Of a stretch of 64,000 nucleotides of DNA, positions 2,686-20,351 are shown piece after piece. The notes beneath the pieces are model-generated. The model was not told where the DNA came from. It was given only the letters and a program-made list of their open reading frames with translations, and did not search any database. Made by a program: the position numbers and the translations under genes. The DNA comes from Sulfolobus islandicus Y.N.15.51 (GTDB lineage: Archaea; Thermoproteota; Thermoprotei_A; Sulfolobales; Sulfolobaceae), in assembly GCF_000022485.1 (NCBI RefSeq), contig NC_012623.1, positions 868,001 to 932,000 on the forward strand, in the 5' to 3' direction. Position 1 is the first letter of the stretch, and each line of letters begins with the position of its first letter.

Positions 2686-3200
2686 AGTTTTGTCTCCTTA
2701 TCTATCTCTTCCTCTATTTGTCTTATTTTTTGCTCCAAGAATGACTTAATCTTTTCCGTATCATAGTAGGTTAGTTGAGATCCACATTTCAAACATTTAA
2801 ATTCATTTTCAAACGCTTCCTCAAATGAATATCTACTATTATCTTGTGGACATATGAAGAACGTATTATTTTTCTCATATTCTAATCTTGATTTTAATTT
2901 ATCCAATATTAACCTTTTTCTATTTAATAGTATCTCATTAATTTGATCTATGTTAGGCTTCCAATAATAAATGAACCATCCGCTATCTTTATCCCTTGTT
3001 TTCCTATAACTTACAAAACCTTGCTCCTCCAGCAAATTCAATTTCTTTCTCACATCATTAACCTTTATATTAAGCTGATTCGCTATTTCTTCATCTGTCA
3101 TTTCAGTCCCTTTTTCTAGTAGCACTCGCAAAACATCAATCACGTCATCTCCCAACAAACTTTTCGCTAGATTAATAAACAAGTCCTCTGCATTAACCAT
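2673..3200 (-). CDS. tfe: Transcription factor TFE alpha (TFIIE alpha homologue)
   Basis: 175 residues: an N-terminal winged helix (residues about 5-95, with [28 protein letters not shown] split across its recognition helix) and a C-terminal zinc ribbon with C116-P-x near FICPQD and CLKC near residue 137, then a coiled C-terminus. TFE helps open promoters with TBP, TFB and RNA polymerase. It overlaps trm56 by 8 bases and the methyltransferase by 13, so it is translated from a polycistronic message. Confidence 0.93.
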
Positions 3201-3729
3201 TTCTTATCACCTTCTTGCCAACATTCTGAGGTAATATCTTTATTTTCGCATCTCCAAATTCCATATATAGCTCTCGTCCCTTATAAATTCTGTCTAAAAA
3301 AATTGCCAGTGCTGCTACTTCAGAATGTGGCTGATTCCCTATTGCTATGTTGTAATCCACATTACGATAATACCAACCTTCAACTTTTTCTGCTCCTACA
3401 ATTATTAATAGAGGATATTTTATTTTATCAAGCTTATCTTGAAGATCGTTAATATTAATTCCATACATTGTTAAGTGTATTACCGTACCTCCTTTTTCTT
3501 TCCATTCATTTACAATATTCTTGCCGTTTTCGATTTCTTTTACCAAAAAATATGACGATCCACCCCAACTATCTATGACTTTTGATATAGATTTTATCAT
3601 TTTTTCATCTTTACCTTCGATATAAACACCCTTAGCTCCAAAAGCTCTTGCTACTAAGATTACATGTGTTGTCACTCTTTTATCTCTAGCTGGTCTATGG
3701 CCTAACCTTAAAACATATATATCTTTCAA
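3193..3729 (-). CDS. trm56: tRNA (cytidine-56-2'-O)-methyltransferase Trm56
   Basis: 178 residues matching the archaeal aTrm56 SPOUT family: N-terminal [18 protein letters not shown], central [10 protein letters not shown], and the knotted region [16 protein letters not shown]...[18 protein letters not shown]. It methylates the ribose of C56 in the tRNA T loop. Overlaps of 4 and 8 bases with hflX and tfe indicate one transcription unit. Confidence 0.93.
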
Positions 3730-4796
3730 CTCAACTGTGTTGTTAGCTGGTATATCCTCTCCCTTAATAATTCAAGATTTGTTCTCTTTAAAGCTGATAT
3801 AGGTATGACATCGAATATGGGAGAATATAACTCTTTTGATAGCTTTTCTATTAGATTAAGCTTTTTATATAAATCGCCATCAATTTTATCAATTTTATTA
3901 AGGGCTACTAGTATAGGCTTACCCGAAACTCCTATTTCTCTTAAAATTTCGAAAGAGGATTGCAAAGTCTCAATTAGTAAATTTTCCGAAAACATAGAAT
4001 CTATTACAAGAATTAATGCATCTGAGTATTTTGCTTCTGACAGAGTGACGAAGAAAGCATCTACAATTTGTGGTGGAATTCCTCTAATAAATCCTACAGT
4101 ATCAACTAGCATAATCTTTCTATTATTTATAGAGAGGGCATATCTTTTAGGTGACATTGTGGTAAATAGTTTTGTATCAACTTTCTGTGTTAACCCGGTT
4201 AATGAGTTAAATAACGAGGTCTTTCCGGAGTTTGTATATCCTACGATTCCAACAGAAGGAATATTGTTCCTCTTATTAGATTCTATGGATTTTTCTTTAA
4301 AGGCCTTTATATTTTCTAATTCCTTCATAAGTTTATTGATTCTTCTTTTATAAAATTTTATTGTAGATTCTACTCCATACGTTCCAGCTCCTAAAGGACC
4401 TTGTTGTTCGCCTATTTTTGATTTAGTATACGTTTCCTTTATTATCGGTAGTTCATACTTAAGCCTGGCCAGTTCTATTTGCATTTTTGCTTCTTTTGAC
4501 CCTGCATGCAATGCAAATATTTCTAAGAGAAGGAGTATTTTGTCTAGGATCTCTTTTCCTTTTAGTTCTTTTCTCAGATTTATAAAGTGTCTGGGCTTAA
4601 GTTGTTCGAATACGATTAAAGTGGAAATCTCCTCGTCGTTTTTAATTTGTTGCAGCTTATCATATTGTATATAAAATTTCACATTAGGCGATTTTGGTAA
4701 TTTGTAAATCCTAACTATCTTGTAGTTAGCCCCCTCAACTAACGCGATTGCCTCTTCCTTAAATTCTTCAGATACAAAAAGAACTGCACTTTTCAC
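3726..4796 (-). CDS. hflX: HflX-family ribosome-associated GTPase
   Basis: 356 residues. An N-terminal HflX domain with the glycine-rich linker GEQQGPLGAGTYGVE and a coiled-coil (about residues 150-170) precedes a G domain with G1 GYTNSGKTS, G3 DTVGFI and G4 NKID. HflX binds the large ribosomal subunit and can split ribosomes. It overlaps the mbf1 stop and the trm56 start by 4 bases each. Confidence 0.93.
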   Translation of the reverse strand: MKSAVLFVSEEFKEEAIALVEGANYKIVRIYKLPKSPNVKFYIQYDKLQQIKNDEEISTLIVFEQLKPRHFINLRKELKGKEILDKILLLLEIFALHAGSKEAKMQIELARLKYELPIIKETYTKSKIGEQQGPLGAGTYGVESTIKFYKRRINKLMKELENIKAFKEKSIESNKRNNIPSVGIVGYTNSGKTSLFNSLTGLTQKVDTKLFTTMSPKRYALSINNRKIMLVDTVGFIRGIPPQIVDAFFVTLSEAKYSDALILVIDSMFSENLLIETLQSSFEILREIGVSGKPILVALNKIDKIDGDLYKKLNLIEKLSKELYSPIFDVIPISALKRTNLELLRERIYQLTTQLS

Positions 4797-5359: not shown

Positions 5360-6541
5360 TTGTCCGGAGATTTTGACACAATAAGGGATGCTTCTTCTTC
5401 AGACGAGGTTCAATTGGTTAGATTATTAGAAGAAAAAATCAAGTCATTACAGATTGAAATTGAAAATCTAAGAAAAGAACTAAATTATTATAAAGCAGAA
5501 ATGGAAAAAATGTTAAGTCCTCCATTAATTGAGGCAGTTGTATTAGACGTTTTACCAGACGGTAGAGTACTAGTTAGAAGTTCGTCTGGACCAAATTTAG
5601 TAGTAAATGTAGCTAGTCATATTGATCAAAAATTAATAAAGCCTGGAGTATCTGTTGCCTTAAATCAAAGAGGATCTACTATATTAGAGGTTTTGCCACA
5701 GAAGGAAGATCCAATTGTAAAGACAATGGAAATTGTGGAAAAACCTAACGTAACTTATTCTGAGATAGGTGGATTAGAAGAGCAAATAAAGGAGTTAAGG
5801 GAAGTTGTGGAATTACCTTTGAAGAAGCCTGAGATATTTAGAGAGATAGGAGTAGAACCACCAAAGGGAGTTTTATTATATGGTCCGCCAGGTACTGGAA
5901 AGACTATGTTGGCAAAAGCAGTAGCTACTGAGAGTAATGCCGTCTTCATTCATGTTGTTGCTTCAGAGTTCGCACAAAAATTTGTGGGGGAAGGTGCTAG
6001 GATAGTTAGAGAGTTATTTGAAATGGCTAAAAGAAAGGCACCATCAATAATCTTCATTGATGAAATTGATGCCATAGGTGCTAAGAGAATAGATATAGGA
6101 ACAAGTGGAGAAAGGGAGATACAGAGAACGTTAATGCAGCTCTTGGCTGAGCTCGATGGATTTAATCCGTTGGATAACGTTAAGATCATTGCAGCTACGA
6201 ATAGGATAGACATATTGGATCCTGCATTATTGCGACCTGGTAGATTTGATAGGATAATAGAGGTTCCCTTACCAGATTTTAGAGGAAGAACTGAGATATT
6301 TAACATATACCTAAAGAAAATGAAAGTCGAGGATAATATAAATCTTGAATTATTGTCGCAGCTTTCAGAAGGATTTAGTGGTGCTGATATTAAGAATGTT
6401 TGTGTTGAAGCAGCGTATATGGCAATTAGGGATGGTAGGAATAAGGTTACAATGAAGGATTTAGTTAATGCTATAACCAAGATTAATGTTAAAAGGAATA
6501 ATATGGAGAGTATGAAAGAGAGGCGAGAGAAGTATAGCTAA
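5360..6541 (+). CDS. pan: PAN, proteasome-activating AAA ATPase
   Basis: 393 residues: N-terminal coiled coil (about 16-52), OB domain (about 58-112), then an AAA+ module with Walker A GPPGTGKT (175-182), Walker B IIFIDEID (230-237), pore loop KFVGEG, and Arg-finger region ATNR...RPGRFDR. PAN unfolds proteins and feeds them to the 20S proteasome. The start is a TTG at 5360. An A/T run (AGTATATATA, 5341-5350) lies very close upstream, so either TTTTTAG near 5320 is the TATA box or the true start is further in. The C-terminus reads E-K-Y-S, so it lacks the hydrophobic residue of a standard HbYX docking motif. Confidence 0.93.
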
Positions 6542-14681: not shown

Positions 14682-14685
<4 letters not shown>

Positions 14686-16307
14686 GACATTTTTTTAATT
14701 TTAATTATTATAGGAACTTTTAGATTTGGCGCGCTTATTACTGCCTCGCCTACGTCTAGTTTATCTAAACTTTGTGTAAGCCTTTCATCAAGTGATAACG
14801 TATCTCTAATAGCCTTCTTATCAATATCAGATTTTATTGAATGAATAATCTTGATATTTGTATTTTTTAACACATTCTGTGAAAGTAGTGAAGGCGATTG
14901 TGTAATAAAGCATAGGCCTATATTATATTTTCTGATCTCAGAGGCTAATCTATCTATAAATTCATTTCCTTCCTTATTGAAATAATTTTGAGCTTCATCT
15001 AGAATGACAAGAGTCTGTTGAGTTATCTTATATCTTATATAACTTTCCACTATAAGTTTTATTAGGAATAATGAATACAATTTCCTAAGTTTAAGATTCG
15101 AAATAAATCCTAAGTTTATGACTGTAGAAGTCATCAAATAGTCTGGGAACTCATTAAGGGAAATTTCATCTATAGTAGAAAATAATTTTGAAGCAGTCGG
15201 TATAAATAAGATAAATATTTTTCTAAGCAACGCATATTTTACGTCTCTCATCCAGTATGAGGTATCCTCAATATTATTAATAACTTCTAATAACTGATTA
15301 ATTGAGAATTTTCTATAACTTTTTAGTTTTAATAATATAGTATAAAGTAAAAATCGTTGTGGATCTGTTAATTGTAAAACATCTCCAATAATATCTACTG
15401 TATCCTCTACGTCCAGATCTATCAAGTGCAACGGATTTATTTTTACTATAGTTTCCTCATCATAAACTCTAAAATCGTTTTTAAGGAATTGAGCATATTC
15501 ACCATGCCAATCTAATATAATCACCTTAACACCTTTGGTGTGTAATTGAGAAGCTAAAAGTATCGCCGTATTTGTCTTTCCAGATCCAGTACTCCCAAAT
15601 ATGCCTATATGTCTTGTTATGTCCTTTACTCTTATACCTACCTTTGATGTTACTGTTCCATTAGTAGCCTCTCCTATCTCTACGTCAAAATCCTCAGATA
15701 CAATATTATTAGAGTTAATAGGATTGGTGTAGGTTATCTCTGACACCGTTAAAAAAGGGTAGTTCCCAAAGGTCATTGGAATTGGAAGTACGTTTTTTGA
15801 TGGTTGAATAACTTTAAACTCTAAATGCGGAGCTATGGCTTTTGCTAGCACCAATAAATTATTTACTTCTTCCATAAAACTATCTAGTCTTGTATCAGCA
15901 GAATTCTCTAATATCTTATAAATTATAATTGAAGAACCTAGTTTATTTTTTTCTACTATAGTGAATATTGTGAACTTAAATTCAGAATCTTTTCTGGCTA
16001 TCGCATTTATAAAGTCTTTAAGTTCTTTTTCTATATCGTTTTTATTCGAAGTTGGTTCAATTTTACCTGTTATTTTCATAGCAACACCGCAAACGCAAGT
16101 ATTGTCGTAAACGATTTGGAAGATTCCATTTTTTAGAATATATTTATTTATATGTAATTTTAAAGAATTTCTAAAAATAAACGAAATAATTATCACTATT
16201 ATAATTGGTACCATGAAAAACACTAAGTTAATATTAATTAAATTATGAAACAGAATACCAATTCCCAGAACTATGAGTAATATAGGAACCCAAAGATTTT
16301 TATTCAT
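14682..16307 (-). CDS. Membrane-anchored HerA/FtsK-like ATPase
   Basis: 541 residues. Two N-terminal hydrophobic segments (about residues 5-22 and 27-45) are followed by a roughly 180-residue domain of unknown type, then a HerA-like P-loop ATPase: Walker A GSTGSGKTNTA, followed by VIILDWHGEYAQFL, and Walker B LVILDEAQNYF, with a late Q-rich sensor (FITQSP). HerA relatives pump DNA or act with NurA in end resection, but no nurA is nearby and the membrane anchor is unlike HerA. Its 3' end overlaps the end of thsB. Confidence 0.8.
14690..14696 (+). terminator. Poly-T terminator after thsB
   Basis: A run of seven T begins four bases after the thsB stop, followed by further T-rich sequence. It lies in the 3' end region shared with the convergent HerA-like gene. 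Confidence 0.55.
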
Positions 16308-16333: not shown

Positions 16334-16732
16334 CTACAGCGAGTCGATTAAAAGTAATGCGTTCTTAGTTAAAATTAATCTTTCTTTATTTCCTACAATT
16401 TGATATGGTAAGTAGTCTTCTTTAGTACTAACAGCCTTTTTACATTCTATTAAATACAACTCATTCACCTTACCGATTTCACTTCTAATGTAATCTAATG
16501 CATCCTTTATTTGTTCATATGGTAATAGGAGAAGTAAGAAAAACATAGTTGGACTCTTTATCTTATTTCTAGTTGTATTATAGTTGAAGTATAAAAAGCA
16601 AGCTTGTCTTAGCACCCCTTCAAACGGTACGATAGGTAAGACTTGACTAACATAATTATTGTCGTTTTTAATTAAGTTATTAACTTTAGCAACGTCTATC
16701 TTATCTAACTTACTTACTTGAACCTTCGATAT
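16334..16732 (-). CDS. Probable KEOPS subunit Cgi121
   Basis: The segment VLRQACFLYFNYNTTRNKI followed by FFLLLLLPYEQIKDALDYI resembles the core of archaeal Cgi121, where a strand, a helix with H/A spacing and the QI-x-x-AI/L motif are conserved. A GTG at 16615 would give only 93 residues and cut off the first strand (SQVLPIVPFEG), which is in frame upstream. Between the upstream stop and that GTG there is no ATG, GTG or TTG; an ATA at 16732 lies 7 nt after GGTGG and would give 132 residues, a normal Cgi121 length. KEOPS makes t6A37 in tRNA; Pcc1 is also in this window. Confidence 0.6.
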   Translation of the reverse strand: MSKVQVSKLDKIDVAKVNNLIKNDNNYVSQVLPIVPFEGVLRQACFLYFNYNTTRNKIKSPTMFFLLLLLPYEQIKDALDYIRSEIGKVNELYLIECKKAVSTKEDYLPYQIVGNKERLILTKNALLLIDSL

Positions 16733-16734
16733 CT

Positions 16735-16986
16735 CTAACCACCATGATTTATGGGTATTATCTCAATGATATCATTTTCATTTAAAAATTGATCATTATA
16801 TAATCTCCAGTCTTTTCCATTTATTAATATTAGAATTCCAGATTTTATTTGATTATTATGGTTCAATATTAGATGCTTCTCGCCATCTATCTTCAGTAAT
16901 ACATTGAAAAGTTCTTTATCACTGACGTCTATTTCTCTGCAATTAAGTTGAGAAACTAGTGGTCCCTTTAATATCACTTTCGGCAT
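16735..16986 (-). CDS. Urm1/SAMP-type ubiquitin-like modifier
   Basis: 83 residues with a beta-grasp pattern (MPKVILKGP..., ILILINGKDWRL, NENDIIEIIP) and a terminal Gly-Gly (NHGG). This fits the MoaD/ThiS/Urm1 family. Gene order relative to PAN, psmB and the thermosome matches the locus of Sulfolobus Urm1, which is conjugated to proteins and linked to proteasomal turnover. A role as sulfur carrier for tRNA thiolation is equally possible. An E1-like enzyme that could adenylate it is at 28455-29330. Confidence 0.83.
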   Translation of the reverse strand: MPKVILKGPLVSQLNCREIDVSDKELFNVLLKIDGEKHLILNHNNQIKSGILILINGKDWRLYNDQFLNENDIIEIIPINHGG

Positions 16987-18417: not shown

Positions 18418-20220
18418 TTACTGGGTAGAAAGAACCATGGAGTAATACTCTCCTCTTTCTTTCTGGACCCTATCTAAGTAACTTCCGATTTTATTTACTC
18501 TAGGTCTTCCAGTCTCAGCATCTCTTCTGAACGTTACCTCTAATTCTCTCAAAAATTCGTTCATTCCCGTTTTTAGTGTTACTGGAGATGTAGCAAATCC
18601 AGCTTTCTCTGGCTCTCCTTTGAAAACAATAATTCTATCCGCTATATAGTCATGTATTGAAAGATCATGATCTATGATAAAGGTTACTGCTTTTCTCTCT
18701 CTCACAACTCTCTTTATAGCTTTAGCAACGATATACCTCTCTTCGACATCAAGATAAGAAGAAGGTTCATCTAAAACATAAAGATCAGCCTCTTTCGCTA
18801 AAGTCGCTGCTATATACAATTTCTGTAACTCACCTCCACTTAGATCATTCACATTAGACTCTAGTAACCTATGTAAGTTAAGTCTCTTAGTTACTTCTTC
18901 GAAGAACCATGATGACGTAGAAAGTGTATCTTTGCTTACGTTTTCTAAGTACTGTTGAACAGTTCCATCGTAATTAGGTAAAATTCGTTGTGGTTTATAA
19001 GATAATATTTGTTTTTCAGGAGTTACAGAGCCTTCATCTGCTGAAATTTCACCAACTAATATTCTTGCAAAAGTTGTCTTTCCTATCCCGTTTGGTCCTA
19101 AAATTCCGATTATTTCTCCCTCTTTAGCCTCTCCTTCATTTACTACTAGCTGAAAATCACCTAACTTCTTGATTATCTTAGTCCATTTCATTTTTGTTTT
19201 TAGATCTTTAGAGAGATCTAAATCACTAATCTCTTTTAGCATAAACCTTATTTCGTCTGGTCTTATTTTCATATTTTCCGCTGGTAAATATCCTTTTAGA
19301 AAATTATTTATGCCAACTCTCGCTGCATAAGATTTTGATACCCTTCCATATACTGAACTTTCTCCATAAATTATGTGTATCAGATCTGTAAGATAATCTA
19401 AAACTATCAAGTCATGATCAACAACCATAACATATTTATTCTTTAATAATTCTCTAATTGCTTTAGCCATATTCATTCTTTCCCTAACATCTAGATAAAA
19501 GGAAGGTTCGTCAAATATATATATATCTGCTTCTCTTAATAGTGAAACAGCTATTAATAATCGTTGAAGACCTCCTCCAGAAAGTACATTAGCATCCTTA
19601 TTCCAAAGATTAGCCATATTTAGAAGTTCTTTAACTTCATCTTTTTTCCCTCTTTCGTCTATCTTTGTCAAAATTTCGTTTACTGTACCTTTAAGGAATT
19701 TTGAAGCGTACTCAACGTATTGAATCTTATGTATTATTTTTAGCCCATTATTATATAATTCCTTAAAATAATTATATAATTCCTTACCTCTAAACTTTTT
19801 TAATACTTCATCCTTACCTAATTTGGAATTAGGATCACCAAAATTCGGAATTAATTCACCAGCCACTATTTTAAGCACTGTAGTTTTCCCTACTCCATTC
19901 TTTCCTAATACTCCTAATATCGTATTATTTTTAGGCGTTGGTAAGCCAAACAATTTAAATCCATTTACTTTGTATCTGTGTATAACCTCCCCTTCCAACT
20001 CGTCTGGCAAGTTTACAATCGATATCGCTTCGTATGGACATTTCTTCACACATATTCCACAACCTATACAGGTTTCTTCATAAATTACTGGTTTCCCTTT
20101 AACAATGTCCGATAGTTCTATTGCTTTTCCTCCAGATCTGTCAACAGGACAGAAGTTTATACATTCTAAGTTACATTTATCTGGCTTACAAAAGTCATAA
20201 TTTATTACGGCAACTTTCAC
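18418..20220 (-). CDS. ABCE1 (Rli1) ribosome-recycling ATPase
   Basis: 600 residues. The N-terminal domain has two ferredoxin-like 4Fe-4S sites (CKPDKCNLEC..CP and CIGCGICVKKCP). Two nucleotide-binding domains follow: Walker A GKNGVGKTT and GPNGIGKTT, signatures LSGGGLQ and LSGGELQ, Walker B DEPSFYLD and DEPSSYLD, plus the hinge. ABCE1 splits ribosomes after termination. Start GTG 20220 (MKVAVINYDFCK) matches the family; the frame also allows GTG 20226. Upstream A/T-rich sequence near 20245-20255 supplies the promoter. Confidence 0.97.
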   Translation of the reverse strand: MKVAVINYDFCKPDKCNLECINFCPVDRSGGKAIELSDIVKGKPVIYEETCIGCGICVKKCPYEAISIVNLPDELEGEVIHRYKVNGFKLFGLPTPKNNTILGVLGKNGVGKTTVLKIVAGELIPNFGDPNSKLGKDEVLKKFRGKELYNYFKELYNNGLKIIHKIQYVEYASKFLKGTVNEILTKIDERGKKDEVKELLNMANLWNKDANVLSGGGLQRLLIAVSLLREADIYIFDEPSFYLDVRERMNMAKAIRELLKNKYVMVVDHDLIVLDYLTDLIHIIYGESSVYGRVSKSYAARVGINNFLKGYLPAENMKIRPDEIRFMLKEISDLDLSKDLKTKMKWTKIIKKLGDFQLVVNEGEAKEGEIIGILGPNGIGKTTFARILVGEISADEGSVTPEKQILSYKPQRILPNYDGTVQQYLENVSKDTLSTSSWFFEEVTKRLNLHRLLESNVNDLSGGELQKLYIAATLAKEADLYVLDEPSSYLDVEERYIVAKAIKRVVRERKAVTFIIDHDLSIHDYIADRIIVFKGEPEKAGFATSPVTLKTGMNEFLRELEVTFRRDAETGRPRVNKIGSYLDRVQKERGEYYSMVLSTQ

Positions 20221-20351
20221 GAACACTCACCTACTATGTAAAAATATACTTGTTGTTAGAATACTCACATCCTATAAAATTACCCTCTATGTCATTTAAT
20301 AAATCTTCCTCTACTTTTAATATTTTTCCTAATTTCAATCCTTCTCGAGAG

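Follow-up and report, generated by a model that had tools for sequence, protein, structure and literature searches.

A divergent Cgi121 gene of Sulfolobus islandicus that is probably translated from an AUA codon behind a Shine-Dalgarno-like site

Introduction

The infC gene of Escherichia coli has an AUU start codon and is known for the autoregulation of IF3. For archaea, gene finders usually accept only AUG, GUG and UUG as start codons. These three codons are also the archaeal starts named in a review (PMC7531240), and aIF1 of S. solfataricus reportedly selects against start codons that are non-canonical (PMC6237735). In the freely accessible literature searched, including the reviews PMC7531240 and PMC8211752, no AUA start in archaea was reported.

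The gene considered here lies at a position where Makarova and Koonin, in a survey of 2010, listed the arCOG07188 gene of Sulfolobales as encoding an uncharacterized small protein (PMC2948915). The same survey called Cgi121, a KEOPS subunit, absent in Sulfolobales (PMC2948915). In 2023, a Cgi121 of S. islandicus was described, for which binding to Bud32 and a role in t6A formation were reported and whose transcripts were low (PMC10989989); the portions of that article consulted here do not give its locus.

Results

Layout of the locus

The window, i.e. the whole stretch of 64,000 nucleotides of S. islandicus Y.N.15.51 that was analysed, belongs to the genome designated G000, and other G numbers refer to the relatives compared. 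The features relevant to the gene start are the following.

16334..16762, minus strand: stop-to-stop frame of the Cgi121-like gene, 142 codons
16334..16732, minus strand: Cgi121-like gene, KEOPS subunit, at the arCOG07188 position, 132 residues when read from AUA
16730..16732, minus strand: ATA, proposed initiation codon, also in G006, G001 and G002
16739..16743, minus strand: GGTGG, Shine-Dalgarno-like site, from the Gly-Gly codons of urm1
16616..16729, minus strand: N-terminal extension (codons 2-39), preceding the sole conventional start
16613..16615, minus strand: GTG, first conventional start (codon 50 of the frame), giving a 93-residue form
16735..16986, minus strand: urm1/ThiS-like gene, 83 aa, ending in NHGG, stop TAG at 16737..16735
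16710..16745, minus strand: out-of-frame mini-frame from ATG 16745, MVVRDIEGSSK and stop, 12 codons to TAA
16988..17245, minus strand: gene of ribosomal protein S17e, located upstream within this gene cluster
14682..16307, minus strand: gene of a HerA-like ATPase, downstream and part of the same conserved neighbourhood (PMC2948915)
6534..7049, plus strand: gene of a protein with TGT_C2 and PUA domains, the second gene read from AUA, ATA at 6534..6536

A scan of the minus-strand frame 16334..16762 confirmed what a sequence-only reading of this DNA had stated, namely that ATG, GTG and TTG are absent before GTG 16615, and its length of 132 residues from ATA 16732 was equally correct, with 132 codons from the ATA to the stop. 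This reading had also placed the ATA 7 nt after a GGTGG that arises from the Gly-Gly-stop end of the urm1-like gene. The origin of GGTGG (16743..16739) is as described, and the distance holds if it is counted to the A, but actually 6 nt lie between GGTGG and ATA. The ATA follows the urm1 stop at 2 nt, and its A comes 11 nt after the first G of GGTGG. No tandem repeats were found at the gene start, and a recent 4-base duplication (AAGTAAGT after ATG 16745) was rejected as the cause of the out-of-frame ATG because the same frame relation exists in four species.

The encoded protein is a divergent Cgi121

Based on profile, NCBIfam, fold and gene-fusion evidence we conclude that the protein of 16334..16732 (minus strand) is a divergent Cgi121, the identity that had been proposed from the sequence alone. 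The Pfam search with the window protein alone matched no model, and Pfam and codon-score scans on their own were uninformative. An alignment of 19 orthologues of the Cgi121-like protein is here called A1. NCBIfam model NF011465 (KEOPS subunit Cgi121) matches four of the 19 orthologues, with a best E of 6.6e-6, and PF08617 matches one at E 0.02. A profile-profile comparison of A1 with four canonical Cgi121 proteins, taken from further families of the order, gave a match at 96.1% and E 3.5e-9 in which the invariant Gln is aligned as well. Searching PDB sequences with A1 gave a single match, 1ZD0 (PF0523 of P. furiosus), which is weak (E 0.043) and aligned from Gln30.

The AlphaFold2 model of the window protein reached a pLDDT of 85.2 and a pTM of 0.81. 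When this model was compared with the PDB by Foldseek, ranks 1-16 were all Cgi121/TPRKB or KEOPS entries, followed by a clean break; the best probability was 0.99, but the best E was only 5.2e-3, with TM values of 0.44-0.54. In addition, a relative from another family of the order (G028, L032) carries a Urm1 domain ending in SHGG and a CGI-121 domain fused in one frame of 283 codons. A PF08617 search of G000 (to E 0.1) found no second Cgi121 gene. The Gln-Ile pair that serves the 3' CCA tail of tRNA in T. kodakarensis Cgi121 (Q74/I75; PMC10989989) has a counterpart in the window protein, within EQIK at residues 73-76, and most orthologues have QI or NI.

The segment upstream of the first conventional start evolves like protein

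At the codon usage found here, an NTG-free run of 39 coding codons has a chance of 0.20; since such a run is not rare, its significance rests on conservation. The same open frame with the ATA is present in G006, G001 and G002, at protein identities of 96, 83 and 76%, respectively. In four comparisons (G000 or G006 against G001 or G002), dN/dS of codons 2-39 was 0.19-0.27, compared to 0.17-0.19 for the rest of the gene; the G001/G002 pair gave 0.72 for the extension, a value based on few changes. A comparison with orthologues, which the sequence-only reading had suggested as a check, revealed the extension before VLRQA in all 19 aligned sequences, each with the same Gln30, and Pro36 is nearly invariant. 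According to the AlphaFold2 model, the extension contains two strands (residues 2-10 and 27-32). The segment SQVLPIVPFEG, thought earlier to be the first strand of the fold, does lie in frame upstream of the GTG but corresponds to the second predicted strand.

The substitution pattern thus indicates that the extension is under purifying selection as protein. Given that residues 2-39 evolve like protein and include an invariant Gln, the 93-residue GTG form is not the ancestral product. A pseudogene or a sequencing error was ruled out by conservation and dN/dS.

ATA occupies the usual start position behind the ribosome site

The 29 Sulfolobaceae species that have the gene all carry the Gly-Gly-stop end of urm1 where this frame starts. 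With the first G of GGNGG as reference, ATA stands at +11 in G000, G006, G001 and G002, and likewise in G004 and G022, where, however, other starts are possible. Eight species of other genera carry NTG at the distance at which the four congeners carry ATA (ATG in G017, G009, G046 and G044, GTG in G015, TTG in G010, G019 and G023). Only in G000, G006 and G001 is NTG wholly absent for about 39-41 codons after the ATA, whereas G002 has an ATG 11 codons downstream, with no GGTG before it, and TTG occurs two codons upstream in G004 and seven downstream in G022. At 5.9%, ATA is among the common codons here.

Neither an archaeal 16S rRNA match nor the pattern of the 16S 3' end (anti-Shine-Dalgarno) was found in the G000 sequence searched, and the motif of the ribosome site was therefore derived statistically from ordinary genes. 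In four related genomes, the distance from GGTG to NTG peaks at 10-11 nt, which applies to 127 of 243 ordinary starts. From these comparisons, to which AUA starts of independent genes in the same genome and family add further support, it is very probable that translation of cgi121 starts at AUA, as initially suggested.

Alternative starts for the gene

A second, shorter product could be made internally from GTG 16615 in addition to the full-length protein from AUA. This GTG is kept in G000, G006 and G001; however, it sits in the conserved protein segment VLRQAC, more distant congeners have no start codon there, and no clear GGTG-type site was seen at the right distance before it, so that we regard two products as unlikely.

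Alternatively, translation could begin at the out-of-frame ATG 16745, and the ribosome could then shift by +1 into the Cgi121 frame in the course of 11 codons. G003, G014, G012, G020 and G016 have an ATG at the corresponding place that is in the Cgi121 frame and presumably serves as the start, and programmed frameshifting is known in Saccharolobus (PMC8211752). Against this, ATG 16745 is ACG in G002, no slippery site was seen, most changes between G000 and G001 after the ATA fall on third positions of the Cgi121 frame, and the frameshift would be needed in every round of translation. Moreover, GGTGG lies inside the mini-frame of ATG 16745 and hence cannot serve this ATG. We consider such a frameshift highly improbable.

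Equally doubtful is the use of another near-cognate or non-cognate codon, such as UUA 16738, even though the same column holds TTG in G004 and ATG in G017, and one large gene has TTA at GGTG+11 in two other genera. UUA 16738 is only 5 nt away from the first G of GGTGG, a distance found in 3 of 243 ordinary starts, while the modal distance is held by the ATA, which is the conserved codon.

That only the 93-residue protein is made, from the first conventional start GTG 16615 and with the upstream frame open by chance, is scarcely credible in view of the extension in 19/19 orthologues with its Gln30 and a dN/dS of about 0.2, the loss of both predicted strands and of this Gln from the short form, the homologous codon being no start in G004 and G005, and the other NTG codons in G002.

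Near-cognate starts in other genes of Sulfolobaceae

The second AUA candidate within 11 kb, which had been noticed before, turned out to be real. In this gene of a PUA-domain protein, ATA 6534 is present in 7/7 congeners, the most distant of which share 62% identity, whereas the homologous codon is ATG in 19 species from other genera. The gene overlaps the stop of the gene of the proteasome-activating ATPase, and in G003 a GTG three codons upstream represents an alternative start.

Stretches of 400 kb from G000, G002, G014 and G020 were compared for genes that are conserved for at least 8 codons before any NTG. On sequence comparison, flap endonuclease (FEN1) is the clearest near-cognate case. 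FEN1 proteins begin with Met-Gly-Val, and this start was also seen in the species compared here. The Met codon is ATA in 25, ATC in three and ATT in one of the 29 Sulfolobaceae (L177-L205), whereas it is ATG in 14, GTG in five, TTG in four and CTG in one of 24 species from other families of the order. In the species displayed, in-frame stops lie at most 2 codons upstream of this position and thus leave no room for an NTG start. In G000 (G000:C1:757901, L177), the ATA overlaps the stop of the upstream frame (ATAG). The best PDB match of FEN1 is chain 2IZO, an S. solfataricus structure; the match begins only at residue 7 of the AUA reading, and the chain thus lacks the Met-Gly-Val end.

Further cases involve codons other than ATA. 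For NadM (G000:C1:862344, L206-L235), a single column reads CTG in 17, ATG in five and TTG in four readable species and nothing else. The NusA-like KH protein (G000:C1:830912-831349, minus strand) has CTG at GGTG+11 in G000 and G002 and GTG in G014 and G020, and the RsmB-like methyltransferase (G000:C1:957815-958870, plus strand) has ATT at GGTG+11, followed by CTG, with a TTG nearby in G014.

The in-frame codons at GGTG+11 of the six G000 genes without NTG are ATA, ATA, CTG, CTG, ATT and TGT. ATA, ATT, ATC or CTG thus occupies this position in 5/6 genes in G000 against a background of 7.6% (p ~1.4e-5), and in 8/13 genes if the four genomes are pooled (p ~1e-6), whereby these p-values are approximate, as the gene set was assembled after looking. 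With the PUA gene included, about 6 of the 283 genes (2%) that are comparable in the G000 stretch have near-cognate starts. Judging from these patterns, the probable initiation of cgi121 at AUA is part of a broader use of near-cognate codons as starts in Sulfolobaceae.

Some other gene starts were noted on the way. The FtsY gene (G000:C1:939760-940836, minus strand) contains no NTG for 150 codons (92 in G002, 56 in G014), and its codon at GGTG+11/12 is TGT in G000, G002 and G014. A protein of about 1055 aa (G014:C1:1966021-1969188; G020:C1:476895-480077) has TTA at GGTG+11 in two genera and is NTG-free for 76 (G014) and 10 (G020) codons. A 603-residue protein of G014 (G014:C1:1889966-1891777), possibly the ABCE1 orthologue of window 18418..20226, has ATT at GGTG+11 and is NTG-free for 45 codons. 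The Trm56-like gene (window 3193..3771, minus strand) starts with TTG in G000, and the same column is TTA in G002 and ATA in G020.

Discussion

We consider it likely, and hold this with good confidence, that 16334..16732 (minus strand) encodes the Cgi121 of KEOPS, the tRNA t6A-modifying complex, and that it is translated from AUA 16732, anchored by the Shine-Dalgarno-like site. A ribosome that finishes urm1, or a newly arriving small subunit, would be held by GGUGG at the end of urm1, and it would be this position, not a complete match with the codon, that sets initiator Met-tRNA on the AUA; with Met-tRNAi placed in this way, Cgi121 probably begins with Met and comprises 132 residues. Translation from the AUA may be coupled to the end of urm1, the stop of which lies just before the ATA, and a weak start could keep a low-abundance KEOPS subunit low and tied to urm1 translation. 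Since aIF1 reportedly discriminates against non-canonical starts (PMC6237735), near-cognate starts should be weak, which would suit a low-abundance member of a complex. The N-terminal Met, the coupling and the low output of Cgi121 are what we infer from this arrangement. Of the six near-cognate starts, four are located at -12..+15 nt from an upstream stop, a range into which 28% of ordinary genes fall. This proximity would fit, without proving it, re-initiation by a ribosome that is already in place. As a general rule for near-cognate starts, strict coupling to a stop codon was rejected, the enrichment being suggestive only.

The AUA could conceivably even act as a feedback sensor, in which less Cgi121 would deprive the initiator tRNA of t6A, AUA would be accepted more readily and Cgi121 would rise again, a loop comparable to that of infC and IF3. 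In yeast, t6A restricts initiation to AUG, and non-AUG starts roughly double without it (PMC4717488); however, the main effect of t6A is on the first position of the codon, and AUA is mismatched at the third. We regard a sensor of this kind as improbable.

Conserved AUA, AUC, AUU and CUG starts, present on about 2% of the genes surveyed in a model genus (Saccharolobus), imply that annotated, and even cloned, proteins may be truncated. The near-cognate set, which includes a key enzyme of DNA replication, FEN1, would provide natural weak starts for studying how the archaeal ribosome chooses its start codon, in organisms for which genetics and in vitro translation are available.

With the KEOPS subunit Cgi121 (PF08617, NF011465; 1ZD0, 4XAH, 7KJT), the window protein shares the predicted fold, the invariant Gln and the QI motif as well as Urm1 as a neighbour or fusion partner, but it is shorter and strongly diverged, its C-terminal part is reduced and it has no Pfam match. 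Like the Shine-Dalgarno-led AUG, GUG and UUG starts of archaea (PMC7531240), the gene has a GGTG-type site at the modal 10-11 nt from the first G, whereas its AUA falls outside the set of codons named there. With infC of E. coli, finally, cgi121 has in common a role in the fidelity of translation and a conserved probable start codon that is not NTG and has a single mismatch. It differs in that initiation is archaeal, with aIF1 and aIF2, and in that the codon is AUA and not AUU; autoregulation is a property of infC, while the near-cognate habit is common to several unrelated genes of this archaeal clade.
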